From a virus, in IMG/VR virus record IMGVR_UViG_3300028417_000009, positions 1 to 39,818 of that record: a DNA stretch of 39,818 nucleotides; one strand, given 5' to 3'. Shown piece by piece: positions 2,279-33,819 of the stretch. Position 1 is the stretch's first letter, and each line of letters begins with the position of its first letter. The position numbers and the translations under genes were made by a program. The notes under the pieces were generated by a model. That model was not told the origin of the DNA, did not search any database, and was given only the letters and a program-made list of their open reading frames with translations.

Positions 2279-2467
2279 TCAGCTCCAGATAAGATATAGG
2301 GCCACAGCAGGGATAGATACATAAGTTACCCACGTCCATACAAGGATAGGGGCTTCCCCTACTGTCCCCGCAAGGTCTACATGATCAAATATAGTATTGC
2401 TTAGCCATACAAGAGCATAAAAGCAAGTAATATTTGTTAGTGCTATCTGCGCCCATAGTTCATTCAT
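2279..2467 (-). CDS. small membrane protein, 62 aa, two predicted transmembrane segments
   Basis: A short hydrophobic protein with two likely membrane helices: roughly residues 5-27 and 40-60 (ILVWTWVTYVSIPAVALYLIW), joined by a loop with two Asp. It starts inside the end of the helicase gene (eight-base overlap), so it is co-translated with it. A two-helix early membrane protein could be a superinfection or host-membrane modifier, or a holin, but nothing identifies which. Its place in the replication operon argues slightly against a primary lysis role. Confidence 0.55.
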   Translation of the reverse strand: MNELWAQIALTNITCFYALVWLSNTIFDHVDLAGTVGEAPILVWTWVTYVSIPAVALYLIWS

Positions 2468-4250
2468 TGTTGTTGTCTCGTTCTCCAGTGAGGGCAGTAT
2501 CTACTTTCGCGGGCTTAGATATATCCACTATCTGATCTAGATACCCGCCATTGAAATATTCAATCTTAGCAGCTAAGGTGTTCCCCTTTATCCTTTGGGT
2601 AGCTACTGCTTTATCCAGCACATGCTCTTGTGCCATTATATCAAGCCTATTCCTAGCTCTTGTCATAGCTGTATAGATAAGCTCTCGAAACAGCAATATA
2701 GCATTAGAGTCATGGAGAGCTACTATGACATTGGGCCACTCAGAACCCTGAGCTTTGTGTACAGAGAGAGCATAACCAAGGGTTAGGGATGCGAAGTCCC
2801 CAACAGAAGAACAGATATGATCAGCTCTGTCCTCGCCTTGTAGGAATCTTTTAGGACGGATGTACACTATATGGCTAGCAGAGCGTTTCTTTTCATCTTC
2901 GTTGTCAGAGGAGAGCATAGCATCTATATCCACAGCAGAGTAATCATACTCCATGAAATCCTCACCTGCTGCCTCTGTTTCTATCGCACCTCTATTCCCT
3001 ATTATCCTTCCACTGTAATCCATATTGCGTGATGCTGTTCTAGGTAGCTTACCAGTGTACATAGAGTTAATCTCTATCTTGGTTACTATACCCTCTATCT
3101 TGTCCATAAAAACCCTATCCCCAACAGCAAGATACATAGTTATAAAACCTACTATTATCTCATACACTTCCCTATGTTCTTTTTGTGAGATAATAGTAGC
3201 TACAGCTTTAGCTAGGTTTTTAGCTGATACGGCGTTGTCATTATCTTTAAAGAAGGGAGAGAGGATCATATCTTCGTAGGGGTCAAACTCTCCAGCAGCT
3301 ATCATCTTAGCTACAAGCCGGGAAAAACTAACTTCGAAGTTAGCAGTAGCTACTTTTATTTTCTGTTTCCCATGAAAGACTCTTACTCCTTGCCCCCCGT
3401 GATAATCTTGTTGTATCTTTTTGCCTTCCAAACAGCTTAGGGCTTGGCGAATAATAGGGTTATCTAGTGCTGTTCTATGAACCTTTGTTAACTCCGCTAC
3501 TGGTATCTGCTGCAAAGCATAAGCTAAGATTGATTTTCCTATAACAGGCGGGAGCTGGTTTATATCCCCTAGTAGCAAGATTTGCACCCCATCGGGAAGC
3601 GCATCGAATAGCTGCTGCCAAAGAGATACAGGCCCAACCCCTAACATGGATGCTTCTTCTAACACTAGATGGGTGATAGCTAGTTTGTTATCCTTATCCT
3701 TCTTAGGATAGTCCCTTCTTTTTGTCACACCTTCATCATTTATTGTATATTCCACTACGTACTCTAGTAAAGTATGCACCGTAGTCACATTATAGCCAAA
3801 CTTCTCAGCTATGGTAGGATGGGACATTAGTTTGTTTCTAATATTATCGGCAGCTTTATTAGTATAAGCCACTATTGCTATAGATGGAGCAAGCTCATAT
3901 CTACCTTCGCCTTTTATCCTGTATTCTATCCAATCCCAGGTATGCCTTGATAGCCACAGCAAAGAGATAGCTTGCATCAAAGTAGATTTACCCGTGCCTG
4001 CTTTGCCTATGATAGAGAAGTCCACCCCTTGGATAGCTAATTTTAAGGCTGATATCTGGGAGGTATCCAGCTTGATTGGCTTTCCGCTAGCATCTACCAG
4101 CGACCCAAGCTCTGGATATGGGATCAAAGGAGGAAGGGAGGTCAGGGATACGGATATTGGCTTAGCCAGGGGCTTAGGCCTTGCCGGTATTGTTATTGTA
4201 GCTACAGGAGAGACCTGTAGCCGGATAGCAGGCACAATGAGCTTGCTCAT
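2460..4250 (-). CDS. SF1 DNA helicase, RecD/Dda-like, 596 aa
   Basis: A superfamily 1 helicase. Motifs in order: Walker A GKAGTGKST (about 82-90), motif Ia AYTNKAADNIR (about 129), motif II with the catalytic acidic pair in LVLEEASM (about 198-199), motif III GDINQLPPV (about 228-236), motif V ALSVHKAQGSEWP (about 494-506) and motif VI YTAMTRAR (about 526-533). This is the RecD2/Dda layout, which unwinds 5' to 3'. It would work at the replication fork or in recombination. The ATG at 4250 is chosen because it overlaps the upstream stop as ATGA and has AAGGGGAT before it; an upstream start five codons earlier has no such support. It lies near the start of the operon, close to the presumed origin. 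Confidence 0.92.
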   Translation of the reverse strand: MSKLIVPAIRLQVSPVATITIPARPKPLAKPISVSLTSLPPLIPYPELGSLVDASGKPIKLDTSQISALKLAIQGVDFSIIGKAGTGKSTLMQAISLLWLSRHTWDWIEYRIKGEGRYELAPSIAIVAYTNKAADNIRNKLMSHPTIAEKFGYNVTTVHTLLEYVVEYTINDEGVTKRRDYPKKDKDNKLAITHLVLEEASMLGVGPVSLWQQLFDALPDGVQILLLGDINQLPPVIGKSILAYALQQIPVAELTKVHRTALDNPIIRQALSCLEGKKIQQDYHGGQGVRVFHGKQKIKVATANFEVSFSRLVAKMIAAGEFDPYEDMILSPFFKDNDNAVSAKNLAKAVATIISQKEHREVYEIIVGFITMYLAVGDRVFMDKIEGIVTKIEINSMYTGKLPRTASRNMDYSGRIIGNRGAIETEAAGEDFMEYDYSAVDIDAMLSSDNEDEKKRSASHIVYIRPKRFLQGEDRADHICSSVGDFASLTLGYALSVHKAQGSEWPNVIVALHDSNAILLFRELIYTAMTRARNRLDIMAQEHVLDKAVATQRIKGNTLAAKIEYFNGGYLDQIVDISKPAKVDTALTGERDNNNE

Positions 4251-5098
4251 ATCCCCTTCCCCCAATCACATCCAAGCCCTGCATCTTTAAGCTCTCCAGT
4301 TAAATACCTTCTAATCAGCTTAAGGCTTTTATGCTCTACACTATCCTGAGATAACATATATTCTTCCTTACCTATAGACATCATTGTATCAATTATTTCT
4401 GTTACCCTAGCGCGGATAGCTGGTGTGACAGTTAGCCATTTAGGAGCACCAACATTATCATCCCATATCAAAAACGAGGCTGCTTTTCTAACACTGGTTA
4501 GCGCCAAGGTAGCACCACTGTCCGGGATAGCATTATGTAGTTTAGGAAGTAGCTTAGCTACCCTGTTGCTTACGCTCTTAATATCCATCTTAGCTACAGA
4601 TAACCTTTCTTTCTTCTGCTTTAGGGTGTTGCGTGTCTTGATATAGGTTTCCATATCAGCTTTGGTCACATCTTGGCAAGCTATAGCCTTAAGAGTCTTG
4701 TAGATCCCTTGTGCATTTTGGGTTGCCGCAGTGGTGAGATTAACAGTTAGGGGTTGGGAGTTTAGATGTGCTCTGGTATTGCGGCATTGCCAATATAGCT
4801 CTATCAGACAGTTGGTAGGTATCTTTTGCAGCTCTTCGTTCACTTTGCCTCTGAGGTACTGAGGTTCCTGCTTAGGGTTAGCTATCAGCTCTGATTCTGT
4901 AAGCTGCAACAAGATCCCAGCGGCTATATAGCTTGTTGGGAGAGAATTAGATTTAGTCTCTATCATCTTGTATAGCCGTGCAGCGTTGGCAACTGTGTGG
5001 TGGGTGGCTGGCCACAGATCATTGTGTTTATAATCGTCCTGTATCGTACTGGATAGCCCAGTTATAGGACAAACTAGATAGTGTATAGTAGATGGCAT
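4247..5098 (-). CDS. hypothetical protein, 283 aa, early
   Basis: Unrecognised. The N-terminus has HYLVCPITG, a motif-like segment with a single Cys; the middle is helical and Lys-rich (about 155-190, possible coiled coil); the C-terminus is again helical. I start at the ATG at 5098, which follows the stop of the previous gene and has GAGGA about 10 bases upstream; a longer frame (to 5251) would overlap the neighbour by over 100 bases. It is directly upstream of, and coupled to, the helicase (ATGA), so a replication-initiation or helicase-partner role is a reasonable guess, but there is no motif to prove it. Confidence 0.65.
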   Translation of the reverse strand: MPSTIHYLVCPITGLSSTIQDDYKHNDLWPATHHTVANAARLYKMIETKSNSLPTSYIAAGILLQLTESELIANPKQEPQYLRGKVNEELQKIPTNCLIELYWQCRNTRAHLNSQPLTVNLTTAATQNAQGIYKTLKAIACQDVTKADMETYIKTRNTLKQKKERLSVAKMDIKSVSNRVAKLLPKLHNAIPDSGATLALTSVRKAASFLIWDDNVGAPKWLTVTPAIRARVTEIIDTMMSIGKEEYMLSQDSVEHKSLKLIRRYLTGELKDAGLGCDWGKGI

Positions 5099-5124
5099 AG
5101 TATCAGTATCCTCGGCAACGCCGA

Positions 5125-5334
5125 TTAAACAGCAGCTAGTGTAGTTAGTTCTATCACCTTGTAGGTAGGCCGGTCTGTTATCTCCTTGTATTCCCAGATC
5201 TGGCCAGGAGTTAGCTGTTGGATCAGCTCCCCAATGTTGTGGATGAAACATACTTTATGGGATTGGGTACGGGCTATCCATCCATCTTTAGACTGCGTGT
5301 CGCGTAATATGCGTACTTGATTGGTTGCTGGCAT
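5125..5334 (-). CDS. hypothetical protein, 69 aa, first gene of the leftward operon
   Basis: Unrecognised 69-residue protein with a strong ribosome site (GGAG, eight bases before the ATG). It is the first gene after the leftward promoter at 5403-5431, with a leader of about 60 bases. The sequence is mixed alpha/beta with a VCFIHNIGEL segment and no membrane helix. First genes of phage early operons are often small regulators or host-directed inhibitors, which is inference from position only. Confidence 0.65.
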   Translation of the reverse strand: MPATNQVRILRDTQSKDGWIARTQSHKVCFIHNIGELIQQLTPGQIWEYKEITDRPTYKVIELTTLAAV

Positions 5335-5373
5335 TAGTAGTGCTCCAGAAGATCATAGTTCAGCTAGTAGATA

Positions 5374-5388
5374 GGGAATTGATTTCCC
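5374..5388. promoter_or_regulatory. short palindrome in the leftward leader (candidate operator)
   Basis: GGGAA-TTGAT-TTCCC is a perfect inverted repeat with a five-base spacer. It lies about 8-22 bases downstream of the predicted leftward start site (near 5396), a place where a bound repressor would block transcription or where the RNA hairpin could protect the 5' end. There is no second copy at the rightward promoters, so if it is an operator it is specific to the leftward unit. Confidence 0.3.
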
Positions 5389-5402
5389 TGATTGAGTTGA
5401 TT

Positions 5403-5431
5403 ACAATATCACAGAAGGGGATTTTTGTCAA
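5403..5431 (-). promoter_or_regulatory. leftward sigma70-type promoter for the early operon
   Basis: On the minus strand, TTGACA (5431-5426, perfect -35) is followed after 17 bases by TATTGT (5408-5403, four of six matches to the -10 consensus). The predicted start is near 5396, giving a leader of about 60 bases before the first gene. The -35 box sits at the outer edge of the left arm of the large inverted repeat. Host RNA polymerase use is expected because no phage polymerase gene is visible. Confidence 0.6.
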
Positions 5432-5575
5432 ATCGGAGGCAAGTGCCTGATTTTCAAGGGTTTTTCTGTTACGGATGTCTCTGATCTTGCCGATCAACCA
5501 GATCCTTATTCCGTCTCTCTGATCTTATATTTTGTGTGTGCTGTAAGTGCCTGATTTGCCTCATAATCTTTGGGC

Positions 5576-5611
5576 TTGGATCATGCTGATCTAGCAAATC
5601 TACAGGATCTA
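5576..5611 (-). repeat. left iteron array, four 9-bp units
   Basis: Read on the minus strand, four head-to-tail 9-mers run from 5611 to 5576: TAGATCCTG, TAGATTTGC, TAGATCAGC, ATGATCCAA. The shared core is AGATC. Direct repeats at near-helical phasing are the typical binding sites of replication initiators or cooperative regulators. The array is the mirror image of the one at 5939-5974, and the two centres are equidistant from 5775. Confidence 0.6.
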
Positions 5612-5773
5612 CAAAATCCGAGGTGGGGGTGTGTTGTCCCGCCTAAATCCCATCATTCCCGGTACTATCTATATCCGCCTATCCTCCATTACCAATATAT
5701 CTCTAGTCGGTAGCTCTATCCTCTCATTTTAGCTAGTAGAGTATGCTCCTTGCGTATATTTGTTATGTGTTTG

Positions 5774-5786
5774 TGTCAAAATGACA
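5774..5786. promoter_or_regulatory. central palindrome of the control region
   Basis: TGTCA-AAA-TGACA is a perfect inverted repeat with a three-base AT spacer, centred at 5780. It lies within a few bases of the symmetry centre of the large inverted repeat (about 5775). It could be the dimer-binding site at the middle of the switch, or simply the remnant of the palindrome's apex. Confidence 0.35.
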
Positions 5787-5938
5787 AGTATATATAGGCT
5801 AATAGCTATACATGGATAGTCAGATAGATAGGTACTAACTGGATATAGGTTATAGCTAAGGGGTTAGTAGTGGAGTGTAGATAGTACGGGAAATATCACC
5901 ATATTAGACGGGTCAACACACGGGGGCCTCCATATTTG

Positions 5939-5974
5939 TAGATCCTGTAGATCCTGTAGATCAAGGAGATCCTG
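5939..5974 (+). repeat. right iteron array, four 9-bp units
   Basis: Four head-to-tail 9-mers: TAGATCCTG, TAGATCCTG, TAGATCAAG, GAGATCCTG. The first two are identical. The orientation is opposite to the left array, so both arrays point outward from the centre, as do the promoters. The regularity (4 x 9 bases without a gap) makes chance unlikely. Confidence 0.65.
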
Positions 5975-6266
5975 GTACGAGGAATAGGAGGAAAAACAAG
6001 GGGTTAGCACATGATGGAAATTTGATATCAGAGAGACGGAATAAGGATAAGGTCAATCAGTGACATCAATGTCCGTTTTTCCCTTGAAAATCAGGCACTT
6101 GTGGGCGGTTCCGATTTGACACCAAAGACATATTTAGCGTTCCGGCCCAATCACGAGCAAATCAGCTATATATTAAAGGAGTAGGCCTTTAGCGGTTATC
6201 TCTGCTCTACTAGCTATAGGTAACTAAGATACATAGTGCTATAACTAAACGATCTATCTCTAGTGG

Positions 6267-6295
6267 TTGACAATGCAGCACTAGGGAGCGATACT
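6267..6295 (+). promoter_or_regulatory. rightward sigma70-type promoter
   Basis: TTGACA (6267-6272, perfect -35), a 17-base spacer, and GATACT (6290-6295, four of six -10 matches). The predicted start near 6302 gives a leader of about 130 bases before the ATG at 6433. It lies outside the right arm of the inverted repeat, so it is not simply the mirror copy of the leftward promoter. Confidence 0.5.
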
Positions 6296-6432
6296 ATAGT
6301 TACACCAACAGAGAGGAGCAGAGATTATATAACAGATGCAGAGGAGGAAGTAATAGAATTCAGATGGTGAGAGAGATATTTCGCATCGGTAGAGGGCAAT
6401 TTATCTGCTAACTATGAAAAATGGGAGGTAAC

Positions 6433-6633
6433 ATGAGCGACCACAGAGCAATAGCGCTAACACGCACCAGACTAGCAGCAGTCACAGAGCAGTTAGAAAC
6501 TTGCAAGACCCTAGCCAGCTACTTCCACACACAGAAAGAGTTCAGCTCTTGGGCTAAGATGATGCAAAGGTGCAAAGCATACAAAGCCCAACTAGCTATC
6601 TTGGCAGCATCGGATACTGCAACCACAAGATAG
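6433..6633 (+). CDS. hypothetical protein, 66 aa, first rightward gene
   Basis: Unrecognised short helical protein, rich in Ala, Thr, Gln and Lys, with two Cys. The ATG at 6433 is preceded by GGGAGGT four to five bases upstream, one of the best ribosome sites in the window; the ATG 12 bases earlier lies in front of that site and is unlikely to be used. It is the only gene between the rightward promoter and the separate promoter of the next gene. Its size and position resemble small early regulators, which is inference from position only. Confidence 0.6.
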   Translation: MSDHRAIALTRTRLAAVTEQLETCKTLASYFHTQKEFSSWAKMMQRCKAYKAQLAILAASDTATTR

Positions 6634-6662
6634 CCAGGATTACTAGTAGCTAATCTCACCTA

Positions 6663-6692
6663 TTGAGCCAACAACCACGATTATGATACAAT
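6663..6692 (+). promoter_or_regulatory. extended -10 promoter of the 233-residue gene
   Basis: TTGAGC (6663-6668), an 18-base spacer, and TACAAT (6687-6692, five of six), immediately preceded by TGA so that an extended TGnTACAAT box is present. The predicted start near 6699 gives a leader of about 60 bases, containing the palindrome GGCC-TTTA-GGCC at 6722-6733. Together with the terminator at 7474-7515, it defines a one-gene transcription unit. Confidence 0.5.
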
Positions 6693-6759
6693 GCAGGTTC
6701 TGAAATACAGATTCCACCGATGGCCTTTAGGCCGAACACAACAGAGAGAGAGTGATACC

Positions 6760-7461
6760 ATGAACAACAACGCTGAAACCCTGATTACAGAAACCGAAGT
6801 CGCCTCTATAGGCGACACCCAAACAGACTGTGAAGCCCCACCACTCAGCCCACAAGAAGCTGGGGACGCCAAATTCCATGAGGTGCAAATGCGTATCGCT
6901 GAGCGCAAAGCAGGCAAAAACGTATTCAAGTGCTTCCTTACCTATGGCATCCCTACACTGGATCAGGTATCCCCTAACCTGCCAGCCCCGGATAGTTGGG
7001 AAGGGACAGAAGTAACAGAGGGCGAAGAGACCATTGTAGTTAACTCCCCTGTCTACACCAGCGATACCCTCCAATACGTCCAGGATGCTATTATCCAGCG
7101 GCTACAGGGCCTTGCTCGCTCACGTCTATCAGCTGGGCAGGAGCAGTGTACCACGTGGAATGAGGTAGCAGAATCTGGTGGTGCAGGTACTAAGTATCCT
7201 GTACAGCTTAAAGCGTTTCGTGAGGGCTTTGCCACATGGCTGCAAGATGTATCTCCTTACAATGAAATCCAGTCTGCGGCTATCATGTCCTATACAGACA
7301 CTCGCCGTCTGCTTACTCAGGATGACGAGCGCAAGGCCAAGTTCGCAGGTGTAGTCAGTGAGTATGTAGAATCGCTTGGCGATAAAGCTGTGGAGATTGG
7401 CTCAGTCATCTCTGCTATCAACCGAGCTATCACCACCACTCAGGAAGATCTGGACTGGTAA
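6760..7461 (+). CDS. hypothetical protein, 233 aa, single-gene transcription unit
   Basis: I do not recognise this protein. The ATG at 6760 (MNNNAETLITETEV) is chosen because the extended -10 promoter ends at 6692 and a purine-rich AGAGAGAG tract lies upstream; an ATG at 6691 is inside the promoter. The first 35 residues are acidic and low-complexity, the middle is mixed, and the C-terminal 90 are helical, ending in the acidic tip EDLDW. Codon choice differs from its neighbours (more CGC/CGT Arg, more GC), suggesting high expression or separate origin. It has its own promoter and a perfect 13-bp terminator stem, unusual in this compact genome. A highly made early, host-directed or DNA-coating protein is possible. 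Confidence 0.75.
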   Translation: MNNNAETLITETEVASIGDTQTDCEAPPLSPQEAGDAKFHEVQMRIAERKAGKNVFKCFLTYGIPTLDQVSPNLPAPDSWEGTEVTEGEETIVVNSPVYTSDTLQYVQDAIIQRLQGLARSRLSAGQEQCTTWNEVAESGGAGTKYPVQLKAFREGFATWLQDVSPYNEIQSAAIMSYTDTRRLLTQDDERKAKFAGVVSEYVESLGDKAVEIGSVISAINRAITTTQEDLDW

Positions 7462-28852: not shown

Positions 28853-28977
28853 AGCAGCAAGTTTAATAACTCTACTATGGATAAGGTTAATACGATACCT
28901 ACAATAAGTAGAAATATGAATTCTAACCAGGTATCAAATCCAAATAGTCTTAAGAAGAAATTGCTTATAGTGCACAT
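28846..28977 (-). CDS. tiny membrane protein, 43 aa, distal end of the leftward operon
   Basis: A short frame on the minus strand, overlapping the last seven bases of the giant ejection gene tail-to-tail. It encodes one strong membrane helix (LEFIFLLIVGIVLTLSIVEL) after a basic-hydrophobic N-terminus (MCTISNFFLRLFGFDTW). GAGGA lies nine bases before the ATG at 28977, and AGGAGG lies further upstream in the terminator hairpin. It is the last gene of the leftward operon. Topology fits a small holin, lysis regulator or superinfection-exclusion protein; function is unproven. The strong ribosome site and the uninterrupted helix argue it is real. Confidence 0.5.
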   Translation of the reverse strand: MCTISNFFLRLFGFDTWLEFIFLLIVGIVLTLSIVELLNLLLY

Positions 28978-31818: not shown

Positions 31819-32697
31819 TTAATTTCCTACCTCCAACATAAAGGTAAGCATAGTGTGGGTAGCGCAGTGAAACCCAGCAGCAGAGGGATGCCCTCCTCCA
31901 CCATAGATCTCAGCTATCTTAGCAACATTAATACCTTTATCCTCTTTTCTGCTACGCAGAGAGACTTTCCATCTACCTTTCTGTTTTTCGTATATAGCAA
32001 TATAGGCAGCATCAGGACATTCTTTTAGAGCTGTATTACCTATCTCACTGACTAAGAAACCTGGTGCGTTATAGGCAGGGATAAAAACATCATCCTCTAG
32101 TTCCCAGGTAGTTCCATTATTAGCCAGAATCTTAGCTACCTGCCTATCCTCCTGTCTAAGCAGTATTCTTCCCTGTGCCTCTAATGCTATAGTCCCCATA
32201 GGATCCTGTATACTAGTATTAAGCACCTCAACAGTTAGGAGATTAGAATACAATGCTGCGCATATAGCTTTTGTTTCAGGGAGCTTAAATTCCCATAGAT
32301 CCCTATCCTGGATATGAAGCAAGATTGCAGGTGTGAGGCTAATAGTGTGCAGGTATTGCCAAGCTAATACCGCCCCTGATTTGGTAACATCAAGTACCAT
32401 TGTTAGGTTATCAGGCAATGAGGGTTCTGAAGCCAAGGCCCTAACCATAGAATCATGATGATCTATGGCAGTTACACTTTTAGCAACATGACATAGATGT
32501 TCTAGCTGTTCCACCGGATAGCTAAAATCTACCAGGTATACCTTTTTGTCTTGTATACGCTCTGTTAGCGGTGCCTCATCTCCATAGGTAGCAGGTATTA
32601 GATCTACCTTGCCATCATAGTAATCCCAAAAACACCATGCCGCTCCTATGCCATCTAGGCAATCTGCATGATAGATAACTACTGGTGCATTGCTCAT
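31819..32697 (-). CDS. DHH/DHHA1 family phosphoesterase, 292 aa
   Basis: Shows the DHH pattern: metal ligands in IYHADCLDG (about 8-16), VYLVDFS (Asp about 57), the signature AIDHHDS (about 77-83), and the C-terminal DHHA1 segment GGGGHPSAAGF (about 266-276). This family includes NrnA-type oligoribonucleases and cyclic dinucleotide phosphodiesterases. In a phage it could recycle nucleotides or degrade signalling dinucleotides; the substrate cannot be told from motifs. Starts with an ATGA overlap with the DUF5675 gene and ends just before the GTG of the DUF3987-like gene. Confidence 0.88.
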   Translation of the reverse strand: MSNAPVVIYHADCLDGIGAAWCFWDYYDGKVDLIPATYGDEAPLTERIQDKKVYLVDFSYPVEQLEHLCHVAKSVTAIDHHDSMVRALASEPSLPDNLTMVLDVTKSGAVLAWQYLHTISLTPAILLHIQDRDLWEFKLPETKAICAALYSNLLTVEVLNTSIQDPMGTIALEAQGRILLRQEDRQVAKILANNGTTWELEDDVFIPAYNAPGFLVSEIGNTALKECPDAAYIAIYEKQKGRWKVSLRSRKEDKGINVAKIAEIYGGGGHPSAAGFHCATHTMLTFMLEVGN

Positions 32698-33149
32698 TGA
32701 GGTTCTCCTCTGTCAGGGCTTAAATATGGCACATTCTCTACAACATGAAACCCTATCTTATCAGGCTTTGTAGTTCTAACAAGATCCATCAACCGATCCA
32801 TAGCTGCTATGGATTGCACAACTGCCCACTGTTCCTGTATCATCCCTAGGTACAGCCCCACTCCTATACATCCTTCTACATCTTGGCAGGTGTTAGCTCT
32901 GTGTACTTCTATGGCAAAACGGTTAGGAACATCTTGTAGTTCTAGGTTAGAATACTTTCCTCTGAAGTTACCTTTGGTGGCTTTGTACATTCCTAATGGA
33001 ATACAAGATAGATTCTGTCGGTTCTGTAGCCAGGGTCTCTCTATGGTGCATAGAGCAAACTCTGGGTGCCCAGTAGCTGTAAGAGTGCCAAATACTCCGG
33101 CTTCTTTGGTATGTGCAAATCTGGTTAATACTAAGTGTAGATCTTTCAT
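32694..33149 (-). CDS. DUF5675 family protein, 151 aa, possible lysis role
   Basis: The sequence has the DUF5675 layout: a beta-strand start, CTIERPW, a CIPLGMYKA turn, FAIEVHRANTCQDVEGCIGVG (the H-x-A-N and G-C-I-x-V-G core at about 78-96 with two Cys), and a helical end. DUF5675 proteins occur next to lysis genes in phages and have been suggested to act on peptidoglycan, but the activity is unproven. I place the start at the ATG at 33149 because AGGAGATACCTA lies ahead of it, while the longer upstream frame has no site. It sits between thyX and the DHH gene. No other endolysin is visible in the window. Confidence 0.7.
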   Translation of the reverse strand: MKDLHLVLTRFAHTKEAGVFGTLTATGHPEFALCTIERPWLQNRQNLSCIPLGMYKATKGNFRGKYSNLELQDVPNRFAIEVHRANTCQDVEGCIGVGLYLGMIQEQWAVVQSIAAMDRLMDLVRTTKPDKIGFHVVENVPYLSPDRGEPQ

Positions 33150-33192
33150 TCTTAGGTATCTCCTAGCAGCGAGGCTGCCACATGTTGGGTAT

Positions 33193-33819
33193 CTAGCGGT
33201 GGACACAAGTTATATATAGATACTGATGATCTTCAGGCAAGGCTTCATATACCGCATAAGCCAAACTCCTAATCTCCCACATTGCAGCTGGTGCTGTTCT
33301 AAGAGTAAGAAAGTTTTGTAGACTCCTAGCATTTATAGTCCAGGTTAGCTCTGTTTTGTAGGCGTCTGGTAAGGCGAACTTAGCAATGCCATTTGGTACC
33401 CCTTGGCTTTTTAACTCCCTAACATTTTCAAGAGCCTTGGCTATATAGGTATCTGTCAGGTCATTACCTGTAAGGACACAAAACTTAGCTACCCGGCCCC
33501 AGTAATATGTCTCACCAGAAATCTCAAAGCTGTCTTCCTCCTCCAACTCTTTCAAGGTATATCTTGTACTCTTAGCACTTAGCGAAGCTATCCTATGTCT
33601 AGCAAGCTCCTGCAACAGCGCTCTACTAACTCCTTGGATATAAAAGGTATAGTTTAGATGCTCCAATGTGCTGGAATGTTTAAACTTATTCCCTACTTTG
33701 TCTATCAATTCTCTGTCTTTTGGCCCCCCATTATCTGATTTACCATGTGATTGCCAACAAGTGCGTACAGCATGGGAACATATTGGCAGTGGTGTGTTAT
33801 GCATTAAGGTTACTTTCAT
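33193..33819 (-). CDS. thyX: FAD-dependent thymidylate synthase ThyX, 208 aa
   Basis: Carries the ThyX signature R-H-R-x7-S: RHRIASLSAKS at about 74-84, followed by TRY at 85-87. It converts dUMP to dTMP using FAD, NADPH and methylene-tetrahydrofolate. Length is close to the usual 200-250 residues. The start overlaps the polymerase stop as ATGA, so it is made with the polymerase and supplies thymidylate for replication. No thyA is seen. The C-terminal half has RSLQNFLTLRTAPAAMWEIR, typical of the substrate-binding helix. Confidence 0.95.
   Translation of the reverse strand: MKVTLMHNTPLPICSHAVRTCWQSHGKSDNGGPKDRELIDKVGNKFKHSSTLEHLNYTFYIQGVSRALLQELARHRIASLSAKSTRYTLKELEEEDSFEISGETYYWGRVAKFCVLTGNDLTDTYIAKALENVRELKSQGVPNGIAKFALPDAYKTELTWTINARSLQNFLTLRTAPAAMWEIRSLAYAVYEALPEDHQYLYITCVHR

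Follow-up and report, generated by a model that had tools for sequence, protein, structure and literature searches.

How an origin of replication loads exactly two opposed replisomes is a long-standing question. Iteron-type origins (P1 plasmid, lambda O-type) place repeated protein-binding sites beside an AT-rich stretch, next to replication genes, and HSV oriL is a longer palindrome lying between divergently transcribed replication genes. To our knowledge, neither HSV nor iteron origins take the form of a 700-bp phage mirror with co-evolving arms, and we found no description of mirrored phage origins in the open-access literature. In HSV origins, initiator boxes of opposite orientation flank an AT-rich spacer, and each arm is bound by dimers of the origin-binding protein (PMC12543377). 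At the origins of bacteria, plasmids and viruses, palindromes have been described as invariably short (10-12 bp); the control regions of insect mitochondria hold unusually long ones (PMC1762429). The extrachromosomal prophage origins of parABS mycobacteriophages rely on RepA or on a single non-coding RNA (PMC7157519).

The candidate origin described here, a mirror-image region in the genome of a phage, shares traits with each of these systems. Like HSV oriS/oriL, it has inverted candidate sites around an AT-rich centre, but HSV origins are near-perfect and about 45-150 bp long, whereas the phage mirror extends over 700 bp, is 65% alike and consists of many blocks. As in iteron origins, repeated putative sites lie beside an AT-rich stretch next to replication genes; an iteron origin, however, has one direct array on one side, whereas the phage region repeats the entire site in mirrored form, and neither a Rep nor an O-type initiator was recognised. 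With bacterial oriC (DnaA-trio, BUS) it has in common a GC-rich block and a TAG-rich tract side by side, adjoining repeats, but it differs in its lack of a DnaA-box excess, its depleted 3-nt period and the presence of 4-, 8- and 10-nt periods. An unusually long palindrome in a candidate replication control region likens it to insect mitochondria, although the latter is organelle DNA. In the parABS mycobacteriophages a non-coding phage segment drives replication without integration (PMC7157519), to which the episomal persistence of the Fredfastierviridae phage Shea (PMC13348215) is comparable; unlike the mirror, these mycobacteriophage origins are described without mirrored arms (PMC7157519).

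The window, i.e., the whole stretch of 39,818 nucleotides that was analysed, belongs to a podovirus, encoding an SU10-type capsid protein, terminase, portal, family A polymerase, DUF3987-type primase, Sak4-like ATPase and Dda-like helicase. Its capsid and gene order match those of Fredfastierviridae (119X, PaP2), Polaromonas phage Tiera and EBPR podovirus 3, with 43% between its MCP and that of 119X and with the packaging, structural and replication blocks in the same order. We consider the phage Fredfastierviridae-like, i.e., related to PaP2 and 119X and to Tiera. A direct peptide search with the window's helicase gave no close relatives, and positions 5000-7000 showed no DNA similarity to annotated phages; relatives came from alignment-based searches. 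The nearest relative found is the IMG/VR contig G001 (43069 bp), whose capsid is 87% and helicase 72% identical to those of the window.

Positions 5426-6121 match their own reverse complement over the full length (blastn of 5400-6150 against the same genome; E 1.5e-24, 65% identity), bearing out the original prediction of a mirror-image region of about 700 bp at 5427-6121. Local alignment of the left half with the reverse complement of the right half scored 117.5, against a mean of 21.5 (sd 3.6, maximum 38) in 1000 dinucleotide shuffles and 36.5 at the next-best unrelated inverted-symmetric place in the 39.8-kb window. A lack of significance against shuffled sequence, which had been named as one possible refutation, is thereby excluded. 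With local composition kept (50-bp block shuffles) the mirror has a z of 15.7, and the best non-target control centre over 35 loci does not exceed 5.5. Where six or more blocks in the same order and at the same distance from the centre had been foreseen, we found 11 ungapped blocks of 9-46 bp, collinear around the axis and mostly 0-3 bp (at most 9 bp) off equal distance; the very centre is only weakly symmetric (10/13 positions). The 696-bp mirror lies in a gap of ~1.1 kb between the starts of a leftward 69-aa gene (5334) and a rightward 70-aa gene (6421), and its longest internal ORF has at most 48 codons; it is gene-free and the divergent units start outside it, as had been claimed. A protelomerase telomere site would have a short perfect palindrome at its centre and a protelomerase gene adjacent; among the genes searched, a part of the window's gene set, there was no protelomerase. 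Chimeric assembly and amplification copies are ruled out by the 20-35% divergence of the arms (65-80% alike), and the former also by independent contigs. The parts of the mirror are as follows.

5426-6121, no strand: imperfect inverted repeat (the mirror region), axis 5773.5; half-to-half alignment, blastn and mirror blocks
5426-5773, plus strand: left arm, helicase side; half-to-half alignment and quartet comparison with G001
5774-6121, minus strand: right arm, terminase side; half-to-half alignment and quartet comparison with G001
5740-5810, no strand: AT-rich centre, candidate unwinding element; averaged layout of mirror regions
5619-5673, plus strand: left GC-rich, C-rich polarised block (GGTGGGGGTGTGTTGTCCCGCC...CCCGGTACTATCTA); mirror blocks and shared layout
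5876-5931, minus strand: right GC-rich, G-rich polarised block, mirror of 5619-5673; mirror blocks and shared layout
5441-5455, plus strand: M1 site 1, AAGTGCCTGATTTTC, outer, left arm; motif shared with G001
5545-5559, plus strand: M1 site 2, inner, left arm, 104 bp from site 1; motif shared with G001
5991-6005, minus strand: M1-like site 3, inner, right arm, 12/15 positions; mirror blocks
6086-6100, minus strand: M1 site 4, outer, right arm, 95 bp from site 3; motif search and mirror blocks
5937-5972, plus strand: tandem 9-bp repeats TGTAGATCC with a GATC cluster, mirrored by 5598-5618; repeat search

The same layout recurs across mirror regions of related phages: an AT-rich centre, flanked outward by a G-rich block at 75-150 bp and, beyond it, by repeats. 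As a mean of 20 mirror regions, GC content is 26% at the centre (about 26-35%) and rises to about 45% at 75-150 bp, where the outward strand holds 30-33% G and 13-18% C. In 19 of the 20 the outward strand is purine-rich at 50-150 bp (mean ~0.62 vs 0.50 in controls, sd 0.04). Outward G-rich strands would be expected for two outward leading strands, or for outward primer RNAs on a C-rich template. M1, a motif of ~15 bp, occurs in G001 as 2+2 copies, two in each arm, and the spacing is nearly the same in the window and G001 (104 and 105 bp in the helicase-side arm, 95 and 95 bp in the other). In both genomes M1 matches are confined to the mirror, apart from one match with 2 mismatches. Repeated short candidate sites restricted to the mirror (M1 and the 9-bp tandem repeats), a trait of iteron-type origins, are thus present, as is the HSV-type trait of inverted sites flanking an AT-rich spacer. 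The TAG-rich tracts beside the GC-rich block had also suggested a DnaA-type origin. This candidate was rejected: DnaA boxes (TTWTNCACA) number 70 one-mismatch matches genome-wide against 71 expected, with a single one in the mirror (5772-5780), and the 3-nt periodicity of a DnaA-trio tract is absent, the inner arms being depleted in the 3-nt period (z about -3) and enriched in 4-, 8- and 10-nt periods.

To see how far the mirror extends among related phages, we collected about 160 loci by capsid and helicase alignment searches. In 48 of 67 helicase-anchored loci the best inverted-symmetric window lay upstream of the helicase, and in the top-scoring ones it fell almost always in a non-coding stretch 1.5-4.2 kb upstream. 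Since a search for peaks of symmetry is biased upward, the axes were set against control centres, which remove this bias only partly; with local composition kept, 20 of 36 tested axes, including those of the window and G001, exceeded every control centre (maximum 5.5). The G001 mirror has an arm-to-arm score of 98.5 and a block z of 10.8. The capsid-anchored set added about 10 more contigs above control, at least one of which was already in the helicase-anchored set (e.g., L023, L065, L029, L081 and L035, with z of 12.5, 10.6, 10.1, 8.3 and 8.1). Besides the window and G001, this makes about 18 helicase-anchored and about 9 capsid-anchored environmental phages with a mirror. Tiera, an isolated phage, has a mirror with z 7.2 (near 43857 of OQ067478) and 119X is borderline (z 5.4), and PaP2 and Neko have none that is significant (z about 2.5), nor do L011, L014 and L018 in their largest gaps. 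The mirrors lie next to the Dda-like helicase operon, and each phage has a sequence of its own there. The structure is therefore widespread without being universal, or else it decays below detection, and its apparent absence from PaP2, Neko and these three loci implies that symmetry is not strictly required for the role of the region. In L116, whose mirror lies around 2700, an identical array of 6-bp simple repeats (CATAATCATAATCATAATCATAA) stands in both arms, mirrored about the axis.

The G001 contig begins and ends inside its own mirror, with an overlap of ~120 bp. In this self-overlap (L006 1-120 vs the last 120 bases of L009) the ends disagree just past a run of ten C, and from this disagreement we take it that the assembly broke inside the mirror. 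Contig ends at this place might also mark a packaging or genome-end site (a pac or terminal-repeat region) that is symmetric by chance; the PaP2 and 119X records likewise start and end near the corresponding gap, terminase genes follow the mirror, and Shea has terminally redundant ends (PMC13348215). We consider this highly improbable, as no terminal repeats were found in the records of cultured relatives, many contigs span the mirror intact, and terminase, which cuts directionally, has no need of mirrored arms.

Comparison of the arms revealed that they change together. Between different phages, the similarity score of corresponding arms sinks to the background level (about 20) at helicase identities below 60%, whereas the similarity of the two arms of one phage persists, with a mean score of 51 that is in part a selection bias, since axes were picked as peaks, to an extent shown by the control centres. 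The quartet of window and G001 arms is independent of this axis-selection bias. Across 328 gap-free columns, 42 informative sites supported the pairing of arms within each genome, 10 the corresponding arms and 12 the cross pairing, in 1000/1000 bootstraps, with an alignment near 50% identity that makes the placement of columns uncertain outside the conserved blocks. The excess of 42 over 10 and 12 indicates that the arms of the mirror co-evolve. The arm-specific M1 spacing kept in both genomes suggests that the ancestor already had two arms, which then co-evolved site by site or through short conversion tracts, and argues against wholesale copying of one arm. In some other pairs (L115-L117 and L159-L153), whose helicases share 70-80% identity, an arm resembles its counterpart in the other genome more than its partner in the same one, and the rate of homogenisation therefore varies among lineages. 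The original prediction of an inverted duplication kept because both copies are used is strongly supported by these patterns, together with the recurrence of the mirror at the same place in many relatives. Its description as ancient and drifted is incomplete, as simple drift predicts that corresponding arms should be the closer pair, the opposite of what was seen.

Arm sequences that differ among most relatives might also have arisen by independent, recent inverted duplications without function. This is extremely unlikely: position, layout and polarity are constant, which in large part refutes it, and the window and G001 share sites with arm-specific spacings. A further explanation is strand pairing: a long rod-like hairpin, formed by one strand either as RNA or as DNA that replication exposes, would make the arms co-vary. 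The 696 nt do fold into a single long unbranched rod (z -16.8 as RNA, -18.3 as DNA), and the 42 two-sided changes between the window and G001 resemble compensatory pairs. Every inverted repeat folds as such a rod, however, and about 1/5 of the aligned window positions are mismatched, in addition to many gaps. Over 20 loci, G-U is not consistently over-represented among the mismatches, whichever strand is considered, and the ratio of transitions to transversions is 469:924, where 1:2 is random, from which RNA pairing is not an evident selective force; no conserved promoter is directed into the region and no Rfam family matches it. We rejected selection for an RNA hairpin for want of a consistent G-U bias, and a DNA hairpin might still form. 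As an account of the mirror, strand pairing appears quite doubtful.

We then asked how the mirror relates to the genes and promoters on its flanks.

2460-4265, minus strand: Dda-like SF1 helicase; family search
4247-5098, minus strand: conserved gene directly upstream of the helicase, C-x2-[ST]-G ... H-P motif; candidate initiator or loader
5125-5334, minus strand: first gene of the leftward block, 69 aa, conserved in G001; TRAM-like match too weak (E 0.06) for a confident family
5403-5431, minus strand: leftward sigma-70-like promoter TTGACA-17-TATTGT, -35 overlapping the palindrome edge; promoter scan
6267-6295, plus strand: rightward sigma-70-like promoter TTGACA-17-GATACT, outside the palindrome; promoter scan
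6691-7461, plus strand: terminase-side neighbour gene, C-terminus EDLDW (acidic-aromatic); similar to Tiera 44514-45185 (E 3e-6)

The strongest sigma-70-like matches flank the mirror and fire outward in both the window and G001, whose counterparts read TTGACA-17-GATAAT (leftward) and TTGACA-17-CATAAT (rightward); no such promoter was found inside the window's mirror. This arrangement would also suit a two-way operator, in which an inverted copy of one regulatory region lets one regulator control both divergent operons alike, the more so as the last bases of the left arm are the -35 of the leftward promoter. The rightward promoter, however, lies 150 bp outside the right arm, and 700 bp far exceeds what an operator needs. 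In addition, a conserved neighbour gene of ~215 aa, found in 24 relatives, points toward the mirror in 16 and away from it in 8, leaving one flank of the 16 without a promoter to control and thus without two divergent promoters around the mirror. The mirror keeps its place beside the helicase operon while this neighbour flips direction. A gene facing the mirror in many relatives weakens a divergent switch, which we regard as unlikely, and favours a symmetric bidirectional origin; of the original prediction of a bidirectional origin, a two-way operator or both, the origin is best supported by layout and comparison. The ~215-aa gene occurs both ways round in L101, L109, L115-L117, L129, L131, L153, L156, L164 and others vs L112, L123, L132, L134, L145, L154, L155 and L161. 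Its product has an acidic, hydrophobic C-terminal tail. The acidic tail had suggested an OB-fold SSB, an identity rejected on the predicted fold of the L115 member, which is mostly helical and without a PDB match.

One gene block runs rightward from 6421 to 28852, and the other leftward from 5334, continuing to 29036 on a circular map. The cumulative GC-skew curve reaches its minimum at 4616, 1.2 kb to the left of the axis, and peaks at 28886, where the gene blocks converge. This agrees with an origin close to the mirror, but the orientation of the genes would by itself produce the same pattern. The other proposed refutation, a skew minimum elsewhere together with a lack of conservation, does not apply: the minimum is close to the mirror but off the axis, and conservation in relatives is strong. 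For the neighbour proteins of the mirror, Pfam and PHROG yielded no function and the PDB no similar fold, and thus no Rep, O-type or other known initiator. For the gene at 4247-5098, whose start is probably 5098 rather than 5251 by comparison with G001, identity as a known initiator was rejected, as there is no family or fold match; the predicted fold of a family member has a mean pLDDT of 82 and no PDB counterpart. A gene with this motif upstream of the Dda-like helicase is present in most relatives. From its position we propose its product as a candidate initiator or loader.

Taken at the level of genome layout, it is moderately probable that the mirror is a symmetric bidirectional replication origin of a Fredfastierviridae-like podovirus. 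Supporting this are the mirrored arms, the AT-rich centre, the G-rich blocks, the four M1 copies, which face each other at near-integral helical spacing, the constant helicase-side position, the co-evolution of the arms, and the replication genes in the operon adjoining the mirror. We infer a sequence of initiator binding, opening at the centre and one outward replisome per half-origin. A phage DNA-binding protein, possibly the product of the conserved gene upstream of the helicase, would occupy sites in both arms, after which the AT-rich centre would open and one replisome (Dda-like helicase, DUF3987-type primase, family A polymerase) would be started outward on each strand. Both arms would have to keep fitting the same protein, and short recombination tracts may also homogenise them, which together would explain why they change together. 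More tentatively, the mirrors may belong to a widespread kind of phage origin whose conserved trait is the symmetry as such, and not the sequence: two full-length half-origins would face each other, one replisome each, with the halves matched by co-evolution with the initiator and/or by arm-to-arm gene conversion. If true, this would be a set of naturally occurring origins that stay symmetric as their sequences are replaced, allowing a direct test, in a small cultured phage, of whether each half starts one fork. The mirror could further serve as a marker for finding origins in uncultured podoviruses, and its study points to a conserved unclassified gene as a candidate initiator. Shea reportedly persists as an episome (PMC13348215), a state that would call for an origin active outside lytic growth.

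The replication operon also holds genes for a DHH-type phosphoesterase (31819-32697, minus strand) and a DUF5675 protein (32694-33206, minus strand), and a ThyX-type (Thy1) thymidylate synthase is encoded at 33193-33819 (minus strand), directly after the family A polymerase gene.
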